64,000 nucleotides of DNA. Origin: Metallibacterium scheffleri. Its GTDB lineage: Bacteria > Pseudomonadota > Gammaproteobacteria > Xanthomonadales > Rhodanobacteraceae. Below the pieces are notes generated by a model that had not been told where the DNA came from, made no database searches, and saw only the letters and a list, made by a program, of their open reading frames with translations. The translations under genes and the position numbers were made by a program. Positions within the stretch are counted from its first letter, which is position 1, and every line of letters starts with the position of its first letter. Shown here one piece after another: positions 43,665 through 56,302 of the stretch. The DNA is taken from assembly GCF_002077135.1 (NCBI RefSeq), contig NZ_LDOS01000001.1:136219-200218 (forward strand), in the 5' to 3' direction.

Positions 43665-44759
43665 GGCGGTTTCAAGGTCCCGGTGCAACAGAATCAGTGC
43701 ATGGTGCCGAGCGTGGCCTCGGCGAGTCGTAGATGTTCGTTGTAGACCTGCAGCGGCGTGTGGAATCCATGCCGTTGCCGAGGTCGGGTGTTGAGGCTCA
43801 ACGCGATCTGGTTGAGCTCGTCTTGGCTGTACACCGACAGGTCCGTGCCCTTGGGCAGGTACTGACGCAACAGGCCGTTGGTGTTTTCGTTGCTGCCGCG
43901 CTGCCAGGGGCTGTGCGGGTCGGCGAAGTAGACCGCCACACCGGTTCGCAAGGTCAACGCATCGTGATAGCTCATCTCCTTGCCCTGATCGTAGGTCAGC
44001 GTCTTGCGCAGGGCGGCCGGGATGCGCTGCAGGGCTTGGCTGAAGCTCACCAGCGCGTCTGCGGCGGTGGCGCTGCTCATCTTGGCCAGGACCACGAAGC
44101 CACTGCTGCGCTCGACCAGCGTGCCGACCGAAGAGCGATTGCCGGTGCCCTTGATCAGATCACCCTCCCAGTGGCCCGGGACCAACCGGTCTTCGACCTC
44201 GGGCGGGCGCACATGGATGCTCTGCATGTTCGGGATCTGGCCACGTCGATCCTGACCGCGGCTGCGCGGCTTGCGGGTGCTGCGGCCCTGCCGCAGGCAG
44301 GCAATCAGCTGCTTGCGCAAGTCGCCCCGCGGGGTCACGTAGATCGCGCCATAGATGGTCTCGTGCGACACCCGGTAGTCCGCCCGATCGGGGAAGGCCC
44401 GCGCCAGTATCCCGGCGATCTGCTGCGGCGACCAGCGCGCAAACAGAAGCTCATGGACCACTTCTCGCAGCGCTGGATCGTCGAGCTTGCGCGGCACCCG
44501 CGGTTTGCGTCGGCAGAGGCCCGCTCGCCCTTGCGCCGCCTGCGCGAGATAGGTCACCCCACTCGGCGCACGCCGGCGCTCGCGGCTGATCGTGCTCGCG
44601 GCACGGCCCAGCGAGCGGGCAATCGCACGCAGACTGTCACCGGCTTCCAGACGTCGCTGCATCTCCACGCGCTCATCCAAACTCAGTTCGTTGTAGGTTC
44701 GCATCGCAACAGCCTAAGCTACTCCCGCTTGGGTGTTGCACCTGGAGTTTGAGGCCGCC
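43665..44759 (-). mobile_element. IS30-family insertion sequence
   Basis: 1095-bp element with one transposase gene and imperfect terminal inverted repeats of about 26 bp (43665-43690 and 44734-44759). Both ends share GGCGG..TCAA..TCC.GGTGCAACA on the respective strands. Size and one-gene layout are typical for IS30. Target duplications of 2-3 bp could not be confirmed. The element stands between the LVIVD gene and a ParE-type toxin-antitoxin pair and marks the left edge of an accessory patch. Confidence 0.85.
43694..44704 (-). CDS. IS30-family transposase
   Basis: 336-residue DDE transposase. An N-terminal HTH (LSLDERVEMQRRLEAGDSLR and AIARSLGRAASTISRE) binds the ends. The catalytic core has the acidic residues in HWEGDLIKG, TYDQGKEMSYHDAL and SNENTNGLLRQYLPKGTD, and the signature ADPHSPWQRGSNENTNG of IS30. 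Frame is intact, so it is possibly active. It lies inside the inverted repeats, with 29 bp to its right and left ends or thereabouts. Confidence 0.95.
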   Translation of the reverse strand: MRTYNELSLDERVEMQRRLEAGDSLRAIARSLGRAASTISRERRRAPSGVTYLAQAAQGRAGLCRRKPRVPRKLDDPALREVVHELLFARWSPQQIAGILARAFPDRADYRVSHETIYGAIYVTPRGDLRKQLIACLRQGRSTRKPRSRGQDRRGQIPNMQSIHVRPPEVEDRLVPGHWEGDLIKGTGNRSSVGTLVERSSGFVVLAKMSSATAADALVSFSQALQRIPAALRKTLTYDQGKEMSYHDALTLRTGVAVYFADPHSPWQRGSNENTNGLLRQYLPKGTDLSVYSQDELNQIALSLNTRPRQRHGFHTPLQVYNEHLRLAEATLGTMH

Positions 44760-44949
44760 GGGTTAAACGCCCAAGCGTGTGCTGATGACAAGTTTATGCA
44801 TCATCGCCGCTGATTTTGTGGCTATAAATGCGACAAGCCAGTCGGAACACGCTTGCATCACGTGTGCCGGCTCGGTTCACCCAGACTTGTCGCGCTGGAC
44901 CGCGATCATTCCATCTAGACGTCTATGCTGCATGGATGCCATTCAACAC

Positions 44950-45207
44950 TCAGCCCTCAAACCGCTCGCCGATCGATTCCAGCAAGCGCCGACCATGCAG
45001 CACCGCCAACACCGCGATGCGGTCGGGACGCGCTTCGTAGATCAGGCGGTAGCTGTAGAGGAAGCGCTCGCGCACTTGCACGTCGCCAAGCTCGAACAAC
45101 CCTTCCACCACGCGTTGCGCGTGATGCGGCGAGTCGCGACTGATGAACTGGGCAATCGCGTCAATGTCGTCGAGCGATTCGCTCGACCAGATCAGCGCGG
45201 CAACCAC
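44950..45207 (-). CDS. ParE-like toxin, possibly shortened
   Basis: 85-residue RelE/ParE-superfamily toxin. It begins LIWSSESLDDIDAIAQFISR and ends SYRLIYEARPDRIAVLAVLH GRR region plus LLESI, the usual ParE pattern. Family members have about 95-100 residues; the segment between VVEGL and FELGDVQVRER lacks the usual 'LAEFPxxGRxVPE' piece, so 10-15 residues appear deleted in frame. The start is GTG 45207, overlapping the antitoxin stop by 16 bp. Activity may therefore be lost; equally it may belong to a short subgroup. Confidence 0.75.
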   Translation of the reverse strand: MVAALIWSSESLDDIDAIAQFISRDSPHHAQRVVEGLFELGDVQVRERFLYSYRLIYEARPDRIAVLAVLHGRRLLESIGERFEG

Positions 45208-45389
45208 CGCGCCAATCGCTCACGCGCCTGCTCGTGGGTATGGCCGCGCCCCGCGGCAATGTCTGCCCGCCCGCGCCGGATTTTTTCCAGCACGTACACG
45301 TGGTACTGGATGTCTTCCAGCGTGGCGTCATCCGGCAACTGCGCCAGCAACTGCGCGACTTCCTGTTTCGAGGTCACAGGCAGACTCAT
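45192..45389 (-). CDS. Antitoxin of the ParE-like pair
   Basis: 65-residue small protein beginning MSLPVTSKQEVAQLLAQLPD and continuing LEDIQYHVYVLEKIRRGRAD, then GHTHEQARERLARWL. The centre 'IQYHxYVLEKIRRG...A..G...' is a familiar pattern in antitoxins paired with RelE/ParE toxins. The start at 45389 has a GGAG site 6 nt upstream; an in-frame ATG at 45416 would add nine residues. The antitoxin comes first and overlaps the toxin start, a normal layout for coupled pairs. Confidence 0.72.
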   Translation of the reverse strand: MSLPVTSKQEVAQLLAQLPDDATLEDIQYHVYVLEKIRRGRADIAAGRGHTHEQARERLARWLPR

Positions 45390-45416
45390 GGCGGACTCCA
45401 GGGCGGTCGCCATCAT

Positions 45417-46811: not shown

Positions 46812-47353
46812 TGCCCTGGACGTGGAACAACTATAATAGATTTCTTCGATGGCATGAAGAACTCAATCAAGATCAGGCCAAGAATTCTACGCTTTTGACT
46901 GAAAGATGTTGCATATTTGAATGCCTTTAAATACAAAGCCAGCGGTCTTTCGCGCTTTAGTGTTTTGATTCGGTCGCTCTTGGCTATGCTTGCTGCAAGA
47001 AGCAAATTTCGATCATAACGAGAATCCTTGAGACTCATAAATAGTGAGTTTAGTCTGGTATTATCCGCATAATCGGAAGTTTCGAGTAGCATAAGTGTCT
47101 CCCTAAAGACGCCTATCTCGTAGGCTCTAGAGCTTGAATCGTATATCTCGTTTAGCTCTTTTTGCAGCTGCGCAGCCCGCTTTAAATCTTTGTAATCTTC
47201 TACATGCCAATAGATTTCCGCAAGATAACTCTTTGCTTTCACGCTCCCAAGCTTGACGAGTGGTTCCAGCAGCTCTATAGCACGCGGGTATTCATGCTGC
47301 TCAAATTTTTCAATAGCAGACTGAAGATTATCAGCTTGGCTAGGCGTAGTCAT
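46808..47353 (-). CDS. TPR/Sel1-like helical protein, candidate immunity protein
   Basis: 181 residues. SAIEKFEQHEYPRAIELLEP followed by LVKLGSVKAKSYLAEIYWH is a tetratricopeptide/Sel1-like helix pair; the rest is helical and charged. Start ATG 47353 overlaps the RHS stop by 4 bp (ATGA), so it is translated together with it. Genes coupled directly to the 3' end of an RHS gene are often immunity proteins against its C-terminal toxin. That role is inferred from position; no known immunity family was recognized. AT-rich compared with the RHS gene. Confidence 0.6.
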   Translation of the reverse strand: MTTPSQADNLQSAIEKFEQHEYPRAIELLEPLVKLGSVKAKSYLAEIYWHVEDYKDLKRAAQLQKELNEIYDSSSRAYEIGVFRETLMLLETSDYADNTRLNSLFMSLKDSRYDRNLLLAASIAKSDRIKTLKRERPLALYLKAFKYATSFSQKRRILGLILIEFFMPSKKSIIVVPRPGQ

Positions 47354-48816
47354 TTTGGGCCAAACCATAAAGGTGTGGTCACTACATCGTACTGAACAAT
47401 CAAGCCCAGTGCGTTAGCTTGATCTTGTGCAGCTATAAGGCTCGCCAAGTCGCCACCGCCTTCTCCAGTATATAAGGCAGCGGCGAGCAGAGCCGCTCGG
47501 CCGCTTGCTGCTGAATATGACGCAATCGCTACTGGCGCGTATGCAGCTGCAGCTGCATCTAACCCAATGCCATATGCCGCGCCCGCAGCAGCACCGCTGT
47601 GATAGAAAGCGCTGCATTCATTCGCACCGTCAATACCGAGAATCTGGCGCGTCGCTGCAAGATCACCGTAGCCAAATGTTAACGCTGACACTAACGAATC
47701 ACCGAATCCTGCCGTGAAGTCCACAAACCCTTGCGGCAGCAATGGCAATGCGAATGTCCCATATGGATCGATCCCGTTGATCGGATCCTGCAAAACATAC
47801 CCATAAAAATTTTCGCCGCCGCCTCCAAATCCGAGCGGATCCTCGCTGATGAATCGCCCCATCGCTGGCGCGTAGTAGCGCGCCCGGTAGTAGTACAGGC
47901 CATCACCGTCGTTCTCGCGCCCGGTGTACTGGTACGGGTTGTCGAAACCGCTCATGCTGGCAGTGGTGGCGCCATATGGGTCATAGCTGTACTGCTCCAC
48001 GATCGCCCCCGCGTTGTTGGTCAGAGCCATGGTGCTGTTCAGCGCATCGCTCAGGAAATCCGTGCGTCCGCTGAGATCAGTGCGCGCAAAGCGCTCATCG
48101 ACCGCCAGTCCGGTCAGGATCGACGTCGCCGTGCTGCCATGCGTCTCCTGCACCGCGTTCAAGCCATCGTAAAGGTAACTCGCCGCGTTGCCGTTGAAGT
48201 CCGTATCGACGCGCCGACCCAGGGGATCGTAGCTGAAGCTGGCAATCGTCGTGCCGCCCTGCTTGACCGCGGCGAGTTGGTTGCGCGCGTTCCACGCATA
48301 GGTGTCGGTGCCGTTGCCAGTCAGGTTGCCATCTGCATCGTACGTATATGTCTGCCCGTTCCAACTGGTCAGGCGGTCATTGAGGTCGACCGTCGCTGGC
48401 GTCGTTGTGGCGGGTGGCAGCACATTGGAAGCCAGGCTGCCGCTTTCGCCGCTGCGCTGGCCGGCCGTGTTGTAGGTGTAAGCGATGTTCCCCAGCACGC
48501 TGCCGTTGGCGTCGGCATAGTTCAGGCCGGTGAGGTCACTGGCCGCATCGTAGCCGTAGGTCGTGGTCACGCCATTGGGCAGCGTCAGCTCGATGCGGCG
48601 GTTGGCAGCGTCATAGCTGAAGCCGACTTCCTCGCTGCCTTGTGTGATGTTGGTCAAGCGGTTGGCTGCGTCATAGGTATAACTGACGGTCGCTTGCGAT
48701 CCCGCAGTCATGGTAATGCGACGCCCAGCCGCGTCATAGGCATAACCGCCGACAGCTGATGCTGGAAGTTGCGGCAACAATAATGTTTCAAATATCATCT
48801 TTGTTGTCTTGAGCAT
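47350..48816 (-). CDS. RHS-repeat protein, orphan core and C-terminal tip
   Basis: 488 residues, much shorter than full RHS proteins (over 1000). YD repeats fill about residues 20-270 (YAYDAAGRRITM, YTYDAANRLTNI, FSYDAANRRIEL, YTYDADGNLTGN, FSYDPLGRRVDT), then the RHS-associated core YYYRARYYAPAMGRFISEDP and LGFGGGGENFYGYVLQDPIN ending in GIDPYG, which marks the toxin junction. The C-terminal 130 residues begin TFALPLLPQGFVDFTAGFGD; no toxin family was recognized. The start at 48816 is the first sensible Met and only 12 bp from a divergent gene, so it is probably a displaced 3' fragment rather than a full gene. Normally RHS proteins are exported by type VI secretion; none is encoded here. Confidence 0.85.
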   Translation of the reverse strand: MLKTTKMIFETLLLPQLPASAVGGYAYDAAGRRITMTAGSQATVSYTYDAANRLTNITQGSEEVGFSYDAANRRIELTLPNGVTTTYGYDAASDLTGLNYADANGSVLGNIAYTYNTAGQRSGESGSLASNVLPPATTTPATVDLNDRLTSWNGQTYTYDADGNLTGNGTDTYAWNARNQLAAVKQGGTTIASFSYDPLGRRVDTDFNGNAASYLYDGLNAVQETHGSTATSILTGLAVDERFARTDLSGRTDFLSDALNSTMALTNNAGAIVEQYSYDPYGATTASMSGFDNPYQYTGRENDGDGLYYYRARYYAPAMGRFISEDPLGFGGGGENFYGYVLQDPINGIDPYGTFALPLLPQGFVDFTAGFGDSLVSALTFGYGDLAATRQILGIDGANECSAFYHSGAAAGAAYGIGLDAAAAAYAPVAIASYSAASGRAALLAAALYTGEGGGDLASLIAAQDQANALGLIVQYDVVTTPLWFGPK

Positions 48817-48828
48817 TAGAGTTGATGC

Positions 48829-49101
48829 GTGATCACCGCACCGCAACTACGCGCCGCGCGTGCGCTACTCGGCCTTGACCAGCGTCAGTTGGCCGAGCTG
48901 TGCGGTTTGTCGGTGCCCACCATCCAGCGCATGGAAGCCAGCGATGGCACCGTGCGCGGCACCGTGGATTCGCTGATGAAGCTGATCGATGCGCTGGAGC
49001 GCGGCGGCATCGAGTTGATCGGCGAGGGCCAGATCAGCAGCGGCGGACGCGGCGTGCGCCTGAAATCGCCGGCAGCGCCATCGGAACCGGGCCTGCCATG
49101 A
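48829..49101 (+). CDS. Xre-type helix-turn-helix regulator, first gene of the Ehr operon
   Basis: 90-residue DNA-binding protein. HTH at about residues 7-38: RAARALLGLDQRQLAELCGL and SVPTIQRMEASDGTVRG, then a helix (SLMKLIDALERGGIELI) and a strand GEGQISSGGRGVRLK. Start GTG 48829; an in-frame ATG is not available nearby. Its stop overlaps the hyfB-like start by 4 bp (ATGA), so regulator and complex are made from one transcript, which suggests feedback control of the operon. An unrelated RHS gene is divergent 12 bp away. Confidence 0.8.
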   Translation: MITAPQLRAARALLGLDQRQLAELCGLSVPTIQRMEASDGTVRGTVDSLMKLIDALERGGIELIGEGQISSGGRGVRLKSPAAPSEPGLP

Positions 49102-51089
49102 TGCTCGACGCACTCGTGCTGCCACTGGCCGGCGTCGCCGTGCTGGCGGCGCTGGCTTCGGCGGCGGTCAGTCTGGCCGCGTCACGCTGGCCGCGGGTGC
49201 TGTCGTGGCTGAGTTTTCCGCTGCTCGGCGTGTGTGCGCTGGCGGCGCTCGCGTCCGGCATCGATGCGCTGTGGTTCGGCGGCGCGCATCAGGCCGTGCT
49301 GCCGCTGGGCCTGCCGTGGCTGCCGTGGGAAGTCAATGTAGACCCCCTGACCGGTGTGTTTCTGCTGATCCTCGGCGCGGTCCTGCTGGCGGTAGCGGTT
49401 TATGGCCCCGGTTACGCGCGCGAGTTCCGCAACGGGCGCGATTCTCTGGCCGCGCTGGGCGTGTTCACCGCGCTGTTCGTGCTCGGCATGCTCGGCGTGC
49501 TGCTGGCGGCGGATGCCTTCCTGTTCATGGTGGCCTGGGAGCTGATGTCGCTGGCCTCGTATTTCCTGGTGGCGTTCCAGCACGAGCAGGCCGAGCACCG
49601 CCATGCCGCGTTTTTGTATCTGCTGATGGCACACGTGGCCGGGCTGGCGATCCTGCTGGCCTTTGGCGTGCTGGCCGCGGCCAGCGGCAGTTTTTCCTTC
49701 GCGGTGATGCGCAGCATGCATCCCGATGCGTTCTGGGCCGCGGTGGCTTTCGCGCTGGCGTTGCTGGGTTTTGGCACCAAGGCCGGTCTGGCGCCACTGC
49801 ACGTGTGGCTGCCCGAGGCGCATCCGGCCGCGCCCTCGCACATTTCCGCGCTGATGTCGGCGGTGATGCTGAAGGTGGCGCTGTACGGCTTCCTGCGCGT
49901 GGTGTTCGATCTGCTCGGCCCGCCGCAGTGGGGATTCGGCGTGACCTTGGTGCTGGTCGGCGGCGCCACCGCGGTGATGGGCGTGCTGTTCGCATTGCAG
50001 CAGACCGATCTGAAGCGCCTGCTGGCGTATTCATCCATCGAGAACCTCGGCATCATCTTTCTGGCGCTGGGGCTGGCGCAGATCTTCCAGGTCGCCAGAC
50101 ATCCGGCGCTGGCCGCGCTGGCGCTGGTGGCCGCGCTGTACCAGGCGCTCAATCACGCGCTGCTCAAGGGTTTGCTGTTTCTCGGCGCTGGCGCGGTGCT
50201 GCACGGTGCGCACGAACGCAGCCTCGAGCACCTCGGCGGCTTGCTGCGGCGCATGCCGCGCACCGGCTGGTTTTTCCTGATCGGCTGCCTGGGCATGGCG
50301 GCGGTACCGCCGTTGAACGGTTTCGTCTCCGAGTGGCTGACGTTCCAGGCGGCGTTGCAGGCGTGGCAATTGCACGACAGCCTGCTGCGCATCCTGGTGC
50401 CGCTGGCGGCGGCGGCGCTGGCATTGACCGCGGCGCTGGGTGCCGCCGTGTTCGTGCGCGCCTTCGGCACGGCCTTTCTCGGCCGCGCCCGTTCGCGTCA
50501 GGCACGGCACGCGCACGAGGTCGGCCGCGGCATGCTGGCCGGACAGGCGCTGCTGGTCCTGGGCATCGCCATCGCCGCGCTGCTGCCGGGCCCGGTACTG
50601 GGCCTGCTGGCACGTGCCGCGACGCAGTTGACCGGCGCCGCGGTCAGCGGCGACGGCTGGCTGTGGCTGACGCCGATCAGCCCGAGCGTGGCCAGTTACG
50701 CGCCCCTGCCGATCCTTGCGGTCCTGCTGGTCGTCGGCGCACTGGGCGTGGCGCTGCTGCGCCCGCGGCGGCGCGCGGCGATACGCCGCGCCGTGCCATG
50801 GGATTGCGGCTTCGCGCCGCCGACACCGCGCATGCAATACAGCGCGGCGGGCTTTGCACAGCCGCAGCGCCGCGTGTTCGCGCCGCTGTATGCGTTGCAC
50901 GAGCAAGTCACGCCGGGGCGTTACGAACAGGCCGTCGGTGATCGCGCCTGGCGCCAGCTGTACCTGCCGCTGGGCACGCTGACCGATCGCGTCGCCGACC
51001 TCGCCCGGCGCATGCAGGCCGGGCACGTGCGGCGTTATCTGGCCTGGTCACTCATTACTCTGCTGGTGTTGTTGTGGATCGTGTCCTGA
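49098..51089 (+). CDS. Ehr complex proton/ion-translocating subunit, HyfB/NuoL-like
   Basis: 663-residue integral membrane protein with about 16 helices. The antiporter-like core has MVAWELMSLASYFLVAF, the TM with KAGLAPLHVWLPEAHPAAPS and ISALMSAVMLKVALYGFLRV, and the DLKRLLAYSSIENLGIIFL motif; the Glu of MVAWE and Lys of TKAG and LK are the usual proton-path residues. The C-terminal part WDCGFAPPTPRMQYSAAGFAQP matches HyfB rather than NuoL. Overlaps the HTH gene by 4 bp and the next gene by 16 bp. It would couple redox chemistry to proton (or sodium) movement. Confidence 0.9.
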   Translation: MMLDALVLPLAGVAVLAALASAAVSLAASRWPRVLSWLSFPLLGVCALAALASGIDALWFGGAHQAVLPLGLPWLPWEVNVDPLTGVFLLILGAVLLAVAVYGPGYAREFRNGRDSLAALGVFTALFVLGMLGVLLAADAFLFMVAWELMSLASYFLVAFQHEQAEHRHAAFLYLLMAHVAGLAILLAFGVLAAASGSFSFAVMRSMHPDAFWAAVAFALALLGFGTKAGLAPLHVWLPEAHPAAPSHISALMSAVMLKVALYGFLRVVFDLLGPPQWGFGVTLVLVGGATAVMGVLFALQQTDLKRLLAYSSIENLGIIFLALGLAQIFQVARHPALAALALVAALYQALNHALLKGLLFLGAGAVLHGAHERSLEHLGGLLRRMPRTGWFFLIGCLGMAAVPPLNGFVSEWLTFQAALQAWQLHDSLLRILVPLAAAALALTAALGAAVFVRAFGTAFLGRARSRQARHAHEVGRGMLAGQALLVLGIAIAALLPGPVLGLLARAATQLTGAAVSGDGWLWLTPISPSVASYAPLPILAVLLVVGALGVALLRPRRRAAIRRAVPWDCGFAPPTPRMQYSAAGFAQPQRRVFAPLYALHEQVTPGRYEQAVGDRAWRQLYLPLGTLTDRVADLARRMQAGHVRRYLAWSLITLLVLLWIVS

Positions 51090-52030
51090 CCTTGACTGCC
51101 GCGCTGTTGCAGCCGCTGCTGCTGCTGGCGGCGGCGCCGCTGCTGGTGGCGTGGATACGCCGCGTCAAGGCGCGCCTGCAGAATCGCCGCGGCGCGCCCC
51201 TGCTGACCCCGTATCGCGAACTGCGCAAGCTGCTGGGCAAGGAAGCCGTGGTGGCGCGCACGGCCTCGCCGCTGTTTCGCATCGCGCCGTACGTGGTGTT
51301 CGCCGCCACCTTGCTGGCGGCGGCGGCGCTGCCGGTGCTGAGCACGCTGCTGCCGGGCGCGCGCGTCGCCGATGCGATCGCGCTGATCGGCCTGCTGGGC
51401 CTGGCGCGCATCATGCTGACGCTGGCCGGGCTGGATGCCGGCACGCCGTTCGGCGGCATGGGCGCCTCGCGCGAGATGCTGGTGACGACCTTCGCCGAAC
51501 CCGCGCTGCTGCTGGTGGTGTTCACCCTGGCGATGACCACGCACACCACCAACCTGGCCAGCATGGCCGCCAGCACGCTGGCCGGCGACAGCGTGCTGCG
51601 GCCTTCGTACATGTTCGCGCTGGCGGCGCTGCTGCTGGTGGGCGTGGCCGAATGCGGGCGCATTCCGGTGGACAACCCCAGCACGCATCTGGAACTGACC
51701 ATGATCCACGAGGGCATGCTGCTGGAATACAGCGGCCGCCATCTGGCGCTGATGGAGTGGGCGGCGCAGCTCAAGCTGGCGCTGTTCGCGGTGCTGACCG
51801 TGGACCTGTTCCTGCCATGGGGGCTGGCGACGCGCCTGACCCCGCTGACCCTGCTGGGCGCGCTCGCCGCGCTGGCGCTGAAGCTCGCGGCGCTGGGCGC
51901 GCTGCTCGCGGTCAGCGAAACAGTGCTGGCCAAGATGCGCCTGTTCCGCGTGCCGGGCTTCCTGGCCATGGCGTTCCTGCTGGCATTGCTGGGACTGTTC
52001 GCGCACGTGATTCTGGAATCGGCGCTGTGA
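51074..52030 (+). CDS. Ehr complex membrane subunit, HyfC/NuoH-like
   Basis: 318-residue membrane protein with about eight helices, homologous to HyfC/HycD and NuoH. Signature parts: TPYRELRKLLGKEAVV at the cytosolic side, the acidic loop VAECGRIPVDNPSTHLELTM followed by IHEGMLLEYSGRHLALM, then EWAAQLKLALF. These glutamates and aspartates line the quinone-pocket or E-channel region in complex I. Start GTG 51074, overlapping the previous stop by 16 bp; overlaps the next gene by 4 bp. It links the peripheral redox subunits to the membrane arm. Confidence 0.92.
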   Translation: MDRVLTLTAALLQPLLLLAAAPLLVAWIRRVKARLQNRRGAPLLTPYRELRKLLGKEAVVARTASPLFRIAPYVVFAATLLAAAALPVLSTLLPGARVADAIALIGLLGLARIMLTLAGLDAGTPFGGMGASREMLVTTFAEPALLLVVFTLAMTTHTTNLASMAASTLAGDSVLRPSYMFALAALLLVGVAECGRIPVDNPSTHLELTMIHEGMLLEYSGRHLALMEWAAQLKLALFAVLTVDLFLPWGLATRLTPLTLLGALAALALKLAALGALLAVSETVLAKMRLFRVPGFLAMAFLLALLGLFAHVILESAL

Positions 52031-52731
52031 GTCTCGCGGCGCTGCCGCTGCTGGATCAGGCCGTGCTGGTGCTGGCGGCGATGGCCTTGTTCAGCGCCTT
52101 CGCGCTGCTGGCGCAATCGCGGCTGCTGTCGGCGATCCACGTGTTCGCCTGGCAGGGCGCGCTGGTCGCCGCGGTCGCGGCACTGACCGGCGCCGCCAGC
52201 GGCGATGTGAATCTGTACATCTCGGCGGCGATCACCTTCGTGCTCAAGGTGCTGCTGATTCCATGGATGCTGCACCGCCTGGTGCGACGCCTGGCGCTGG
52301 AACGCCAGGCCGACCCGCTGCCCTACCCCGCGCTGACCTTGCTGGCGGGCGCGGCGATCGTGGTGTTCGCCGACTGGGTGGCCGCGCCGGTGGCGCAATT
52401 CGAGCACTCGGCCACGCGCAACGTCATCGCCATCAGTCTGGCCATCGTGCTGCTGGGCATGCTGACCATGGTGGTGCGCCGGCAGGCGCTGGCGCAGGTG
52501 CTGGGCTTCATGGCCATCGAGAACGGCCTGTTCCTGGCCGCGGTGGCCAGCACCCATGGCATGCCGCTGGTGGTGGAGCTGGGCGTGGCCTTCGACGTGC
52601 TGGTGGCGATGGTGCTGTTCGGCGTGTTCTTTCTGCAGATCAAGGACAGCATCGACACCCTGGATATCGACCGCCTCAGCCAGCTCGCCTCCAGTGTCGA
52701 GCAGGACGACGACACGGAGTCGCCACGATGA
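52027..52731 (+). CDS. Ehr complex membrane subunit, HyfE/NuoK-like
   Basis: 234-residue membrane protein with six or more helices. NuoK-like signs: ISAAITFVLKVLLIPWMLHR, then AISLAIVLLGMLTMVVRRQA and GFMAIENGLFLAAVASTHGM, including the buried Glu of IENGLF and VELGVAFDVLVAMVL. Start GTG 52027 (GTGA overlap with the previous stop); overlaps the next gene by 4 bp. The C-terminal tail is acidic (SSVEQDDDTESPR) and cytosolic. Confidence 0.88.
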   Translation: MSLAALPLLDQAVLVLAAMALFSAFALLAQSRLLSAIHVFAWQGALVAAVAALTGAASGDVNLYISAAITFVLKVLLIPWMLHRLVRRLALERQADPLPYPALTLLAGAAIVVFADWVAAPVAQFEHSATRNVIAISLAIVLLGMLTMVVRRQALAQVLGFMAIENGLFLAAVASTHGMPLVVELGVAFDVLVAMVLFGVFFLQIKDSIDTLDIDRLSQLASSVEQDDDTESPR

Positions 52732-54203
52732 TCTGGCTGCTGCTGACCGTGTTCACCCCGCTGGCCGGCGCGCTGCTGCTGCCCTTGCTGCCGCGCGTGA
52801 GCGTGGCCGGCTGGCTCAACCTCGCGCTGTGCGCGCTCAGTCTGGTCGGCGCGCTGGGGCTGGCGATCGAGGTGTTGCTGCACGGCAGCCTGGCGGGAGA
52901 CTCGTTTCGCGTCGATGCCTTCAATGTCTATCTGGCGGTGCTGACCGCGTTCGTCGGCCTGACCACGGCGATCTTCTCGCGCCCGTACATGTACTACGTG
53001 CACAGCGAGGAAAAGCGCGTCAGCCGCAACGGCATGCGCCTGTACCACAGCATGTATCAGGGCTTTTTGTTCACCATGCTGCTGGCGCTGACCACCGACA
53101 ACCTCGGCATCCTGTGGGTGGCGGTCGAGGGCGCCACGCTGACCACGGTGCTGCTGGTGTCGCTGTACCGCACGCCCGCGGCGATCGAGGCGGCGTGGAA
53201 GTATTTCATCCTCTGCGGCGTCGGCATCGCGCAGGCGCTGTTTGGCACTGTGGCACTGTATTTCGCCGCGCAGCACGCGCTGCCCCCAGGCGCCAATGGC
53301 TTGAGCTGGAGCACGCTGTACGCCATCGCACCGCATCTGGAGCCGCGCGTGATGGTGGTGGCCTTCGTGTTCCTGCTGGTGGGCTATGGCACCAAGGTGG
53401 GCCTGGTGCCGCTGCACAGTTGGCTGCCGGACGCGCATTCGGAAGGCCCCACGCCGATGTCGGCGGTGCTGTCCGGCCTGCTGCTGAACGTGGCGCTGTA
53501 CGCGGTGGTGCGCATGAAGATGCTCACCGACGCCGCGCTGCTGCACAGCGACTCGCCGCAGTTGGCCGGGCATCTGCTGATGGGCTTCGGTCTGCTGACG
53601 TTTCTGGTCGGCGCGATTTCGTTGCACAGGCGCCGCGACATCAAGCGACTCTTCAGCTATTCGTCGATCGAACACATGGGCCTGATGACCTTCGGCTTCG
53701 GCGTGGGCGGCCCGCTGGCCACGTTCGCCGCGCTGCTGCACATGCTGGTGCACTCGCTGACCAAGAGCTCGATCTTCATCAGCGTCGGCCACGCCACGCA
53801 CATCGCCCGCACCCAGCGCATCGAGCGTATCCGTGGCTTGATCCGCACGCAGCCGGCGGTGGGCTGGAGCCTGTTGCTGGGCGTGGTCGCCATCGCCGGC
53901 TTTCCGCCCTTCGGCATCTTCACCAGCGAGTTCCTGCTGCTGGTGGCGACGATGCAGGCGTGGCCGTGGCTGACGCCGCTGCTGGTGCTGGGCCTGCTGG
54001 TGGCCCTTGCCGGCCTGTTCCGCGCGGTGCAACCGATGGTGTTCGGCGCCGCGCCGGTGGGCCAGTACCCGGTGCGCGCCAACATGCTGCCGGTGATCCT
54101 GCAACTGGCCATGGTGCTGATCCTCGGCATCGCCATTCCGGGCGTGCTGGCGCACTGGCTGGATCAGGCCACGCAATTGATCTCGGGCAGGCCGCTGCTG
54201 TGA
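52728..54203 (+). CDS. Ehr complex proton/ion-translocating subunit, HyfF/NuoN-like
   Basis: 491-residue antiporter-like membrane subunit with about 13-14 helices, the second ion-pump module of the complex. Core motifs: LWVAVEGATLTTVLLVSLYR with the conserved Glu, LLVGYGTKVGLVPLHSWLPD and AHSEGPTPMSAVLSGLLLNV with the channel Lys, and IKRLFSYSSIEHMGLMTFGF. Start ATG 52728 overlaps the previous stop by 4 bp; its stop overlaps the next start (GTGA). Fits HyfF or the Mycobacterium HycQ type. Confidence 0.9.
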   Translation: MIWLLLTVFTPLAGALLLPLLPRVSVAGWLNLALCALSLVGALGLAIEVLLHGSLAGDSFRVDAFNVYLAVLTAFVGLTTAIFSRPYMYYVHSEEKRVSRNGMRLYHSMYQGFLFTMLLALTTDNLGILWVAVEGATLTTVLLVSLYRTPAAIEAAWKYFILCGVGIAQALFGTVALYFAAQHALPPGANGLSWSTLYAIAPHLEPRVMVVAFVFLLVGYGTKVGLVPLHSWLPDAHSEGPTPMSAVLSGLLLNVALYAVVRMKMLTDAALLHSDSPQLAGHLLMGFGLLTFLVGAISLHRRRDIKRLFSYSSIEHMGLMTFGFGVGGPLATFAALLHMLVHSLTKSSIFISVGHATHIARTQRIERIRGLIRTQPAVGWSLLLGVVAIAGFPPFGIFTSEFLLLVATMQAWPWLTPLLVLGLLVALAGLFRAVQPMVFGAAPVGQYPVRANMLPVILQLAMVLILGIAIPGVLAHWLDQATQLISGRPLL

Positions 54204-55786
54204 GCACTGCACTGACCGACGTGACCCTGCTCGCGCGCCTGCGCGCCGCGCTGCCGGGCCGCGTTGCGCCGCCACAGGTGGCGCATGCCGAGGCGCTGCT
54301 GCCGGGGCGCACGCTGCAGTTGCAGGCCCGTGATTGGGCCAGCGCCGCGGCGGCGCTGGCGACATTCGGCGCGCGTTTCTCCGCGCTGTGGATCGACCAC
54401 GGTGTGCGGCCATGGCAGGGGCTGGCCTTGTTCGCCGATGGCGGCGACTACCTGCTGCTGCATGCCGAACTCGACAGCCCGAACCCGGCCCTGCCCAGCC
54501 TGACGCCACACTTCGCCGGCGCCGCGCGCAGCGAGCGTGGCTGGCACGACCTGCTGGGCGTGGACTTCGTCGGCCATCCCGACCCGCGCCGCTGGTTGCG
54601 CCATCAAGCCTGGGGCGAGCACGAATTCCCGCTGGCTGCGCCGACGCAACCGCCCGCGCGCACCCCGGCCGATACCACGTACCCGTTCACGCGCGTGGCC
54701 GGCGGCGCCGTGCACGAGGTCGCCGTCGGTCCGATCCATGCCGGCACCATCGAACCAGGGCATTTCCGTTTCGCCACCGTCGGCGAGCAGGCATTGCAGC
54801 TGGAATTGCGCCTCGGCTATGTCCACCGCGGCGTGCAGAGCATCGCCTGCGGGCGTGACGCGGCCGGGCTGCTGCGCCTGGCCGCGCGTGTCAGCGGCGA
54901 CAGCGCGGTGGCGCACGCCTGGGCGGCGGCGATGGCGCTGGAACACGCGGCGGGTGTCACGCCGCCCGCGCGTGCGCTGGCGCTGCGCGCGGTGCTGGCC
55001 GAGCGCGAGCGCGTGGCCAATCATCTCGGCGATGCCGCCGGCATCGCCAACGACGTCGGTTTCAGTTTCGCGCACGTGCAGTTCGGCGCATTGCGCGAGC
55101 GCTGGCAGCGACGTAGCGCCGAGTTGTTCGGGCATCGCCTGCTGTTCGATGTACTGACGCCGGGCGGCGTGCGCGTGGACGTGGATGCCGCGGCGATCGC
55201 CAGCCTGCGCGCCGATCACGACGCATTGCGCGCGGTGTTGCGGCCGCTGATCAACATCGTGCTCGATCACCCCTCGCTGGACGACCGCCTGGTTGGCACC
55301 GGCGTACTCGGCGCCGGCGACGCGCGCGCGCTCGGCTGTCTCGGCTACGTGGCGCGCGCCTCGGGGCAGGATCTGGATGTGCGCCGCGATGCGCCCTATG
55401 CGCCGTATGACCGGCTTGGCGTGCGCGTGCCGGTGTACACGCAGGGCGATGTCGTCGCACGCCTGCGCGTGCGTCTGGATGAAATCGGCATCGCGCTCGA
55501 CCTGCTCGATGCGCTGCTTGCCGATCTGCCCGCCGGCGCGACCATGCTGACCTGGGCTGCCCCCGCGGGTGGCGGCACGGGTCTTGGCCTGGTCGAAGGC
55601 TGGCGCGGTGAAACCGTGGCGTATGTGCGCCTGGATGCGCTGGGTCGCGTGAGTTGCTATGCGCCACGCGATCCCGGCGTGTTGAACTGGCCGGCGCTGG
55701 AGCGCCTGTTGCCGGGCAACATCATCCCGGACTTTCCGGTATGCAATAAATCCATCAACGGCAGTTACGCCGGCCACGATCTGTAA
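54200..55786 (+). CDS. Ehr complex large subunit, HyfG/NuoCD-like without NiFe ligands
   Basis: 528 residues, a NuoC-like N-terminal part (about 1-165) fused to a NuoD/HycE-like part, the usual HyfG plan. True group 4 hydrogenases bind NiFe through two CxxC pairs. Here the first is AARVSGDSAVAHAW: Ser232 and Ser235 replace the cysteines of RVCGIC. The second end reads DFPVCNKSINGSYAGHDL: one cysteine, no DPCxxC. The subunit therefore cannot hold a NiFe centre. The fold marks are normal: LELRLGYVHRGVQSIACGRD, and ERERVANHLGDAAGIANDVG. Start GTG 54200. It probably forms, with the HyfI-like subunit, a complex I-like redox or quinone-binding site. Called a 'hydrogenase' in many annotations. Confidence 0.9.
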   Translation: MSTALTDVTLLARLRAALPGRVAPPQVAHAEALLPGRTLQLQARDWASAAAALATFGARFSALWIDHGVRPWQGLALFADGGDYLLLHAELDSPNPALPSLTPHFAGAARSERGWHDLLGVDFVGHPDPRRWLRHQAWGEHEFPLAAPTQPPARTPADTTYPFTRVAGGAVHEVAVGPIHAGTIEPGHFRFATVGEQALQLELRLGYVHRGVQSIACGRDAAGLLRLAARVSGDSAVAHAWAAAMALEHAAGVTPPARALALRAVLAERERVANHLGDAAGIANDVGFSFAHVQFGALRERWQRRSAELFGHRLLFDVLTPGGVRVDVDAAAIASLRADHDALRAVLRPLINIVLDHPSLDDRLVGTGVLGAGDARALGCLGYVARASGQDLDVRRDAPYAPYDRLGVRVPVYTQGDVVARLRVRLDEIGIALDLLDALLADLPAGATMLTWAAPAGGGTGLGLVEGWRGETVAYVRLDALGRVSCYAPRDPGVLNWPALERLLPGNIIPDFPVCNKSINGSYAGHDL

Positions 55787-55792
55787 ACGCCC

Positions 55793-56302
55793 ATGCTGCG
55801 CATCCTCAACCGCATCGCCCGCACCGGCAACCTGACCGAGCCGCTCGACGCCTCGGCATCGCTCGAGGCACTGGGCATCGCGGTGCGGCGCACGCTGGAT
55901 GCGCGCTTCGCCGGCAGCCTGGCGATCCGCCACATCGATGCCGGCTCCTGCAACGGCTGCGAGCTGGAAGTGCAGGCGCTGGGCAATCCGTACTACGACC
56001 TCGAACGCTTCGGCATCCATTTCGTGGCCTCGCCGCGCCACGCCGACGCGCTGCTGGTCACTGGCGTGGTGACCCGCCACATGCAGGCGGCGCTGCTGGA
56101 TGCCTGGCAGGCCATGGCCGAGCCGCATCTGCTGATCGCCGCCGGCAACTGCGCCTGTGATGGCGGTGAATTCGGCTGCTCCTACGCCAGTCTGGGCGCG
56201 GTGGAAAACGTGCTGCCCGTGGATGTGCGCATTCCGGGTTGCCCGCCCACGCCCGTGGTGTTGTTGCGCGGCCTGCTGGCGGCGCTGGGACGCACGCGCT
56301 GA
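55793..56302 (+). CDS. Ehr complex small subunit, HyfI/NuoB-like, with 4Fe-4S ligands
   Basis: 169-residue iron-sulfur subunit. The four cysteines expected for the proximal/N2-type 4Fe-4S cluster are present: Cys53 and Cys56 in GSCNGCELEV, Cys120 in AAGNCACDGG and Cys150 in IPGCPPTP. A start MLRILNRIARTGNLTEP gives the N-terminal helix. ATG 55793, 6 nt after the large-subunit stop. Because the cluster is kept but the NiFe site is lost, electrons probably pass from an unknown donor through this cluster to an unknown acceptor near the large subunit. It is the last gene of the operon; no ferredoxin (HyfA/HyfH) or HyfD-like gene follows. Confidence 0.92.
   Translation: MLRILNRIARTGNLTEPLDASASLEALGIAVRRTLDARFAGSLAIRHIDAGSCNGCELEVQALGNPYYDLERFGIHFVASPRHADALLVTGVVTRHMQAALLDAWQAMAEPHLLIAAGNCACDGGEFGCSYASLGAVENVLPVDVRIPGCPPTPVVLLRGLLAALGRTR

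Follow-up and report, generated by a model that had tools for sequence, protein, structure and literature searches.

The window analyzed here is a 64,000-nucleotide stretch of the genome of Metallibacterium scheffleri (contig NZ_LDOS01000001.1), and between its positions 48829 and 56302 it carries a tight operon of seven genes on the same strand (+), which we designate hyqRBCEFGI after its counterpart in Azorhizobium caulinodans (see below). The operon begins with a 90-residue, hyqR-like XRE-type regulator (48829..49101; Pfam HTH_3, E-value 6e-8), followed by hyqB, coding for a HyfB/NuoL-like antiporter subunit (49098..51089; Proton_antipo_M, 1e-53), hyqC for a HyfC/NuoH-like subunit (51074..52030; NADHdh, 2e-39), hyqE for a HyfE-like membrane subunit (52027..52731; profile match to Escherichia coli HyfE, 6e-17), hyqF for a HyfF/NuoM/N-like antiporter subunit (52728..54203; Proton_antipo_M, 8e-50), hyqG for a 528-residue NuoC-D/HycE-like large subunit (54200..55786; Complex1_49kDa, 2e-32, and 30kDa, 7e-13), and hyqI for a small subunit with one [4Fe-4S] cluster site (55793..56302; Oxidored_q6, 1e-29). 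Successive genes overlap by 4, 16, 4, 4 and 4 bp, and a gap of 6 bp separates the last two. These open reading frames (ORFs) and spacings bear out the proposal, made in a sequence-only reading of the window, that the genes form one operon.

The same reading had assigned to the operon a membrane arm with two antiporter-like subunits and NuoH- and NuoK-like subunits. This holds for HyqB, HyqF and HyqC, while the NuoK-like character of HyqE was not recovered beyond a weak profile match to E. coli NuoK (E-value 0.19). HyqE has no Pfam match at a threshold of 0.01 and scores 86.6 bits against NCBIfam NF008556, below the cut-off of 136, while NCBIfam labels HyqB and HyqF as hydrogenase 4 subunits B and F with scores above its cut-offs. 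All seven genes are under purifying selection, with pairwise ratios of nonsynonymous to synonymous substitution rates (dN/dS) of 0.01–0.18 against one congener (G009, locus L036) and of 0.13–0.41 against a more distant one (G005, L037), where the regulator shows the highest value. Among the 13 genomes of the genus, 11 carry the operon, the two non-carriers being 81% and 89% complete. The intact ORFs, the low dN/dS and the spread within the genus and beyond rule out a decaying pseudogene cluster or a chance arrangement.

HyqG lacks both of the CxxC motifs of the NiFe hydrogenases. RVSGDS stands where RVCGIC is expected, with SGDS (codons 232–235; 54893..54904, + strand) replacing the first motif, CGIC, in an alignment with C241/C244 of HycE, and NGSYAG stands where DPCYSC is expected, with NKSINGSYAGHD (codons 516–527; 55745..55780, + strand) aligned to the region of the second. 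The HycE cysteines C241, C244, C531 and C534 correspond to S232, S235, S522 and G525 of the window HyqG. In the 95 aligned rows of the window's own type (type A), the first two columns contain S/A/C/V in 82/7/5/1 and S/T/A/C in 69/23/2/1 rows, and the latter two S/A/N in 83/8/4 rows and glycine in all 95; among the residues listed, cysteine accounts for 5, 1, 0 and 0 rows, respectively. The loss of the metal ligands from the large subunit, as claimed from the sequence alone, thus extends to all four NiFe cysteines. Moreover, HyqG stops one residue after D527 and is missing the C-terminal extension of HycE and HyfG.

The positions of H224 and Y273 of E. coli NuoCD, which we take to be the His and Tyr ligands of the quinone headgroup in complex I, are occupied in the window protein by I184 (Ile in 95/95 type-A rows) and G233 (Gly in 93/95). 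With both the NiFe and the complex I quinone ligands lost, a different invariant polar set, D234, N516, K517, S518, Y523 and D527, stands at this site; these residues and G525 are kept in at least 99% of the type-A rows. An AlphaFold2 model of HyqG (527 residues) reached a mean local confidence (pLDDT) of 90.9 and a predicted template-modeling score (pTM) of 0.93, with low confidence in the loops 179–183 and 524–527 near the site. Its best match in the PDB is HycE (7z0s_E; TM 0.91), followed by NuoCD of complex I.

The remaining subunits are conserved in the residues on which electron transfer and pumping would depend. The four cluster cysteines of HyqI (C53, C56, C120 and C150), read as intact in the window, are kept in 88/88 rows. 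The residues checked in the membrane arm, which are presumably those essential for pumping, are likewise retained throughout: E147, K227 and E411 of HyqB (numbered from the ATG at 49101; 76/76 rows), E134, K223 and E401 of HyqF (88/88), and E142, D200, E207 and E218 of HyqC (79/79). The HyqC loop beside the quinone site differs from that of NuoH: at the position of E216 the residues among the 79 rows include A (44), S (17), T (11), G (3) and E (2), and at that of E218 every row has His (His205 in the window). The alignments comprise 76 rows for HyqB, 79 for HyqC, 88 each for HyqF and HyqI and 95 for HyqG; short fragments and loci of types B and C were excluded, and two of the loci, L036 and L057, come from one genome. 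No BLAST relative (E-value 1e-5) of E. coli HyfA, HycB, NuoE, NuoF, NuoG or NuoI was found in the 102 type-A stretches, and only one of them (L101) yields a match to the relay proteins HyfH/HycF. This stretch, from Piscinibacter caeni, contains a second, very divergent HyqG-like gene (L101:1227-2795) that ends in DFPICNKSFDLSYCGNDL and is not among the 95 HyqG rows.

A scan of named genomes recovered at least 573 relatives, confirmed by tblastn, of which the best 80 were retrieved; these 80 are mostly from Pseudomonadota, besides some from Nitrospirota and one record each with the label Thermodesulfobacteriota or Myxococcota. The gene order B-C-E-F-G-I is found on one strand in 79 of the 102 type-A stretches, which were gathered from all sources and are in some cases cut by contig ends; the rest are partial or, in L098, have a split hyqC. 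In a quick tree of the large subunits, with long branches flagged and a midpoint root used for drawing, the five NiFe group-4 rows form one group (SH-aLRT 100) with the window outside it. The 97 type-A rows, held by a fork with an SH-aLRT of 81, are separate from NuoD, from the NiFe hydrogenases of the E. coli type and from two other lineages of the window's genus that lack the ligands. Ligand loss, the missing C-terminal extension and the position in the tree led us to reject a true NiFe hydrogenase.

The two further Ehr-like (energy-converting-hydrogenase-related) lineages of the genus have the order C-E-F-G-I-B and are likewise devoid of the NiFe ligands (L048, G000:C2:1483000-1490000; L049-L051 in G009/G012), with the motifs SFGSTIAGCDR and SFGL(A/S)MAEQDR. 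In one genome (G012), both occur side by side in opposite orientation, in addition to the window type. The first of these lineages, unlike the window type, gives a HyfH/HycF-like match, and such matches are found in the type-B loci L048-L050, L052 and L053. A further Hyq subfamily (HyqG 45% identical) is found in a metagenome-assembled genome (MAG) of the Lysobacterales (L109), where its neighbors are the same hemD/X/Y and c2/c3 genes as in the window, which looks like an in-place exchange of the operon.

We then surveyed 259 pseudomonadotan genomes, drawn evenly and at least 90% complete, for the co-occurrence of Hyq with marker proteins, where absence denotes no match at the threshold (E-values of 1e-30 for HypD, 1e-110 for NifH, and 1e-50 for RuBisCO and NuoD). 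Type A is carried by 45 of these genomes, 44 with HyqG matches of at least 514 bits and one (G189) with a partial match spanning model positions 10–298, beyond which the C-terminal motif lies. HypD, which functions in NiFe cofactor assembly, was not found in 25 of the 45 carriers, including three single-contig, 100% complete genomes (G288, G240 and G191), the first two of which share the CNKSFNC motif of HyqG with A. caulinodans. In comparison, it is present in all eight genomes with HycE/HyfG-level matches (334–366 bits), and both CxxC motifs were seen directly in four of these eight, namely all four that were retrieved. The window genome does have HypD, close to a separate NiFe hydrogenase large subunit of full length, and also has NuoD over the cut-off, RuBisCO and a second, ligand-less Ehr operon. 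NifH was found in 9 carriers and not in the other 36, and 24 carriers have neither HypD nor NifH; it was also not found over the cut-off in the window genome. We therefore reject the recycling of nitrogenase-derived H2 as a general role of Hyq.

RuBisCO is present in 27/45 carriers versus 40/214 other genomes (odds ratio 6.5, p = 7e-8; genus level, p = 6e-5), although genomes are not independent and relatedness is only partly corrected for in these statistics. The counts rest on 67 of the 76 genomes with matches to the family; the other 9, among them one Hyq carrier (G278), had only lower-scoring RuBisCO-like matches and were set aside. NuoD accompanies Hyq in 42/45 carriers, the exceptions being two genomes that are 92–93% complete and a 0.9 Mb genome (G218), which has no match to NuoD, HypD, NifH or RuBisCO and retains hyqB, C, E, F, G and I on two contigs, these coding for its only two antiporter-type subunits. 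The hyq genes of this genome (L138, L150) show a contig break inside hyqC and 35% GC on contig C21, and their neighbors resemble, by names assigned by eye, sugar-acid degradation genes.

As judged by sequence comparison, the closest system found is the hyqRBCEFGI operon described in A. caulinodans ORS571 by Ng et al. 2009 (PMC2650096), and the window operon is its orthologue. The sequence-only reading, which gave the mycobacterial Rv0081-Rv0088 region as an example of an Ehr complex, had not pointed to this relative. We located the A. caulinodans operon in the sole genome of 391 (G326) that contains the primer Hyq-Prox; in 16 kb of this genome Hyq-Prox, Hyq-B, Hyq-C and Hyq-Dist have single matches, and the 10-base core of Hyq-A has two, one of them as expected. 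The seven genes and their order are identical in both operons, with HyqR being 75% and HyqG 43% identical to the window versions. The A. caulinodans HyqG, which was compared by pairwise alignment outside the tree, ends in DFPLCNKSFNCSYAGHDL and shares with the window protein a C-terminal motif of the type NKS...Y(S/A)G.D. Both proteins lack the CxxC motifs, a loss that was stated for A. caulinodans in the 2012 paper (PMC3357923). The same work calls Cys258, Cys491 and Cys497 of HyqG completely conserved (PMC3357923). We recovered cysteines at these positions as printed, yet they correspond to A283, C515 and G521 of the window, two of the three being replaced, and the columns contain cysteine in only 43, 57 and 12 of the 95 type-A rows. 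Hence, they were rejected as an alternative metal site, since they are not conserved family-wide.

In A. caulinodans, and in the available text of these sources only there, the Hyq “endo-hydrogenase” has been reported as part of the nif regulon (PMC2650096, PMC2930871, PMC3357923), with both a NifA box and a sigma-54 site upstream of hyqR (PMC2650096). The 320 nt upstream of this gene gave no strict NifA box (TGT-N10-ACA) and no sigma-54 pattern, which, with patterns this strict, is no refutation. A role in the nif regulon cannot apply in the window genome because of its lack of NifH over the cut-off. The H2 phenotypes, too, were found for A. caulinodans only, where they were obtained with a deletion spanning hyqR to hyqI (Ciccolella et al. 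2010, PMC2930871; Sprecher et al. 2012, PMC3357923).

Other known systems resemble the window operon in part. It shares with the Ehr complexes a group-4-like large subunit without NiFe ligands and a Mrp/Nuo-like membrane arm. Nitrospira has a hyfBCEFGI operon, the subunits of which were named as those of hydrogenase 4 (PMC5596200), and the CxxC motifs are described as lost in the Ehr of comammox Nitrospira (PMC10284858); the gene set and the motif loss are common to the window operon, a likeness drawn by description. However, Ehr is a collective name, and the window's genus alone holds three distinct ligand-less lineages. A search with Ehr terms, with subscription papers outside its scope, turned up none of the three Hyq papers, which is no proof that a connection of the two has never been published. 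The E. coli hydrogenase-4 and formate hydrogenlyase complexes (HyfA-J and HycA-I) have a homologous membrane arm and a comparable subunit order, and HycE is the closest solved structure to the HyqG model; in contrast to them, the seven genes of the window include no counterparts of HyfA, HyfD, HyfH or HyfJ, and HyqG has neither the NiFe ligands nor the C-terminal extension. Complex I is similar in that the window operon encodes homologues of its NuoB, NuoC, NuoD and NuoH and of NuoL/M-type subunits, pump residues included, but the operon has no NADH module and no NuoI, and the quinone-binding His/Tyr pair is replaced.

From the set of subunits, the retained pump residues and the one cluster, we propose that the operon probably encodes a NiFe-free, redox-driven ion pump, a minimal complex within the superfamily of complex I and the group-4 hydrogenases; this estimate concerns the pump as such and leaves its substrates aside. 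The loss of the ligands and the carriers with no HypD match speak against a NiFe hydrogenase. The six-subunit Hyq complex would link ion translocation with redox chemistry on the cytoplasmic side, with a soluble low-potential carrier of the ferredoxin/flavodoxin type exchanging electrons directly with the HyqI cluster, as suggested by an operon that encodes no relay like NuoI, HyfA or HyfH. The second substrate would bind at the former NiFe/quinone site lined by D234, N516, K517, S518, Y523 and D527. Its identity can be suggested only tentatively, with a quinone bound in a manner different from that of complex I as the leading candidate and a soluble acceptor as the other. HyqB and HyqF would conduct the ions, and the reaction would be reversible.

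Several observations weigh against such a pump. In vivo measurements published for A. caulinodans suggest that the orthologue turns over H2 (PMC2930871, PMC3357923), and we found no published experiment showing pumping or redox activity of the isolated Hyq complex. In a survey of neighboring genes, for which 10 representatives of the recurrent clusters were scanned with Pfam, no electron donor gene was consistently linked to the operon. The absence of the canonical quinone ligands argues against a simple quinone reductase. Further, HypD occurs in 20/45 carriers versus 49/214 genomes without type A (odds ratio 2.7, p = 0.005), and Hyq is associated with nifH at the genus level (odds ratio 5.6, p = 0.0009) and weakly at the genome level (p = 0.08).

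The H2 data and the enrichment of HypD among carriers would be accounted for if Hyq converts H2 in vivo at a center other than the usual NiFe site, as proposed for A. caulinodans, an explanation that we regard as unlikely. In that organism, H2 evolution at 20 µM O2 was 175 pmol per 10^9 cells per min in the ΔhyqRI strain versus 12, a 15-fold difference; in a ΔhupSL background at <1 µM O2, loss of hyq lowered H2 output from 61,000 to 14,000, while a nifK ΔhupSL strain still gave 56,600 and a nifA strain 1,100; and much H2 was released from nodules only when hup and hyq were both deleted (PMC2930871, PMC3357923). Against this explanation stand the A. caulinodans HyqG itself, which has no CxxC motif and whose three noted cysteines are not family-wide, and the 25 of 45 carriers with no HypD match. 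The effect on H2 may also be indirect, because the deletion takes out hyqR too and, according to the 2012 paper, no cell-free assay of uptake was available (PMC3357923). The sequence-only reading had named H2 activity dependent on the complex as the observation that would contradict an Ehr-type complex with no NiFe center. Such activity has already been claimed in vivo for the orthologue, albeit with the regulator gene co-deleted and with no cell-free assay. The Ehr-type assignment itself is supported by the ligand loss, the position outside the five NiFe rows and the HypD-less carriers, with the H2 phenotypes of the orthologue counting against it. These phenotypes may reflect either an indirect effect of the co-deleted hyqR or a real NiFe-free H2 chemistry. 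That Hyq turns over H2 with no NiFe center at all, with the D234/N516/K517/S518/Y523/D527 pocket being or holding an H2-activating site, appears highly improbable; the case for it would draw on the missing ligands, the lack of a conserved alternative Cys set and the more than half of carriers with no HypD match. If true, a pump of the complex I type would contain an H2-activating site of a kind not yet described.

Other alternatives place different chemistry at the same complex. A reductase pump of the ferredoxin:NAD(P) or ferredoxin:sulfur type, resembling the archaeal Mbx/Mbs and using the HyqG pocket for a soluble acceptor, would fit the loss of both the NiFe and quinone ligands and the new invariant polar set in their place, but is rather doubtful: none of the 102 type-A stretches has a NuoE-, NuoF- or NuoG-like gene, and HyqG scores 125.7 bits against PDB chain 6u8y_L, which we take to be of the Mbs type (its listing says NADH dehydrogenase subunit D), versus 316.2 bits against HycE. 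A ferredoxin:NADP role has been ascribed to the Mbx of Pyrococcus (PMC6349859). Similarly, feeding of electrons by an unlinked formate dehydrogenase has been proposed for Ehr complexes of other lineages (PMC6349859, PMC7894505); for Hyq this is distinctly unlikely, as no relative of E. coli FdhF was found in any of the 108 stretches searched (the rest of the genomes lying outside that search) and a HyfA/HycB relay is missing. It is very unlikely that the complex drives, or is driven by, the transport of an anion such as bicarbonate or sulfate for autotrophy, with little or no redox chemistry. This possibility is raised by a sulfate-permease-type cluster in 12/101 stretches (the one member scanned, from L083, matches Sulfate_transp with an E-value of 2e-65) and by the enrichment of RuBisCO in carriers. 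The permease gene precedes hyqB in the same orientation in nine stretches (L068, L069, L070, L071, L074, L076, L080, L083 and L097), with a 4-bp overlap in L068, between hyqF and hyqG in L087, and divergently in L045 and L079. However, the link is confined to methanotrophs, some other gammaproteobacteria and a single MAG of the betaproteobacteria, and it did not turn up in the stretches taken from the window's genus; RuBisCO was not counted in 18 of the 45 carriers, which are not independent genomes; and the invariant cluster site of HyqI implies redox work.

These results bear on how the family is named. Hyq is common, being carried by 45/259 sampled Pseudomonadota genomes; NCBIfam and a Nitrospira paper (PMC5596200) speak of hydrogenase 4, a name that does not fit the family in light of the ligand and HypD results. 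The sole experimental work found on Hyq claims, in its available text, H2 turnover with no known catalytic site. The carriers with neither HypD nor NifH, the NuoD-less genome, the invariant residue set and a candidate operator render the Hyq/Ehr puzzle testable. The window operon adds a member to a known Hyq/Ehr kind, and the question of what this family does is sharpened.

The candidate operator lies just upstream of the regulator gene. The window regulator and the A. caulinodans HyqR align with 75% identity over 80 residues, and a perfect copy of a palindrome, ATGATGTTTAAAACATCAT, lies upstream of the A. caulinodans gene. The window has ATAATGTTTCAAATATCAT (48780..48798, + strand), with two mismatches to the pattern ATGATGTTTNAAACATCAT, as a candidate site for HyqR binding; it is the sole match in the 64 kb at up to 3 mismatches, against 0 expected from 100 shuffles. 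HyqR might thus control the operon by binding to this palindrome beside its own gene. A relative of the regulator is present in 25 of the 102 type-A stretches. Among 28 regulator upstream regions, with the window counted in and one genome represented twice, 22 rank in the best 5% when compared with random stretches from their own locus and 20 pass against shuffles, while the remaining regions fail. Some hyq operons are accompanied by second copies of hyqR-like regulators (L044, 1630-1893; L135, L139 and L140). In the window, homology with relatives starts only at ~48755, which places a rearrangement close to the candidate operator on its upstream side. The hyq promoter region also contains the start of a minus-strand RHS-repeat ORF (47350-48846); upstream of this ORF, at 43694-45416, lie a transposase-like ORF, which we assume to be IS30-like, and a ParE-type toxin gene.

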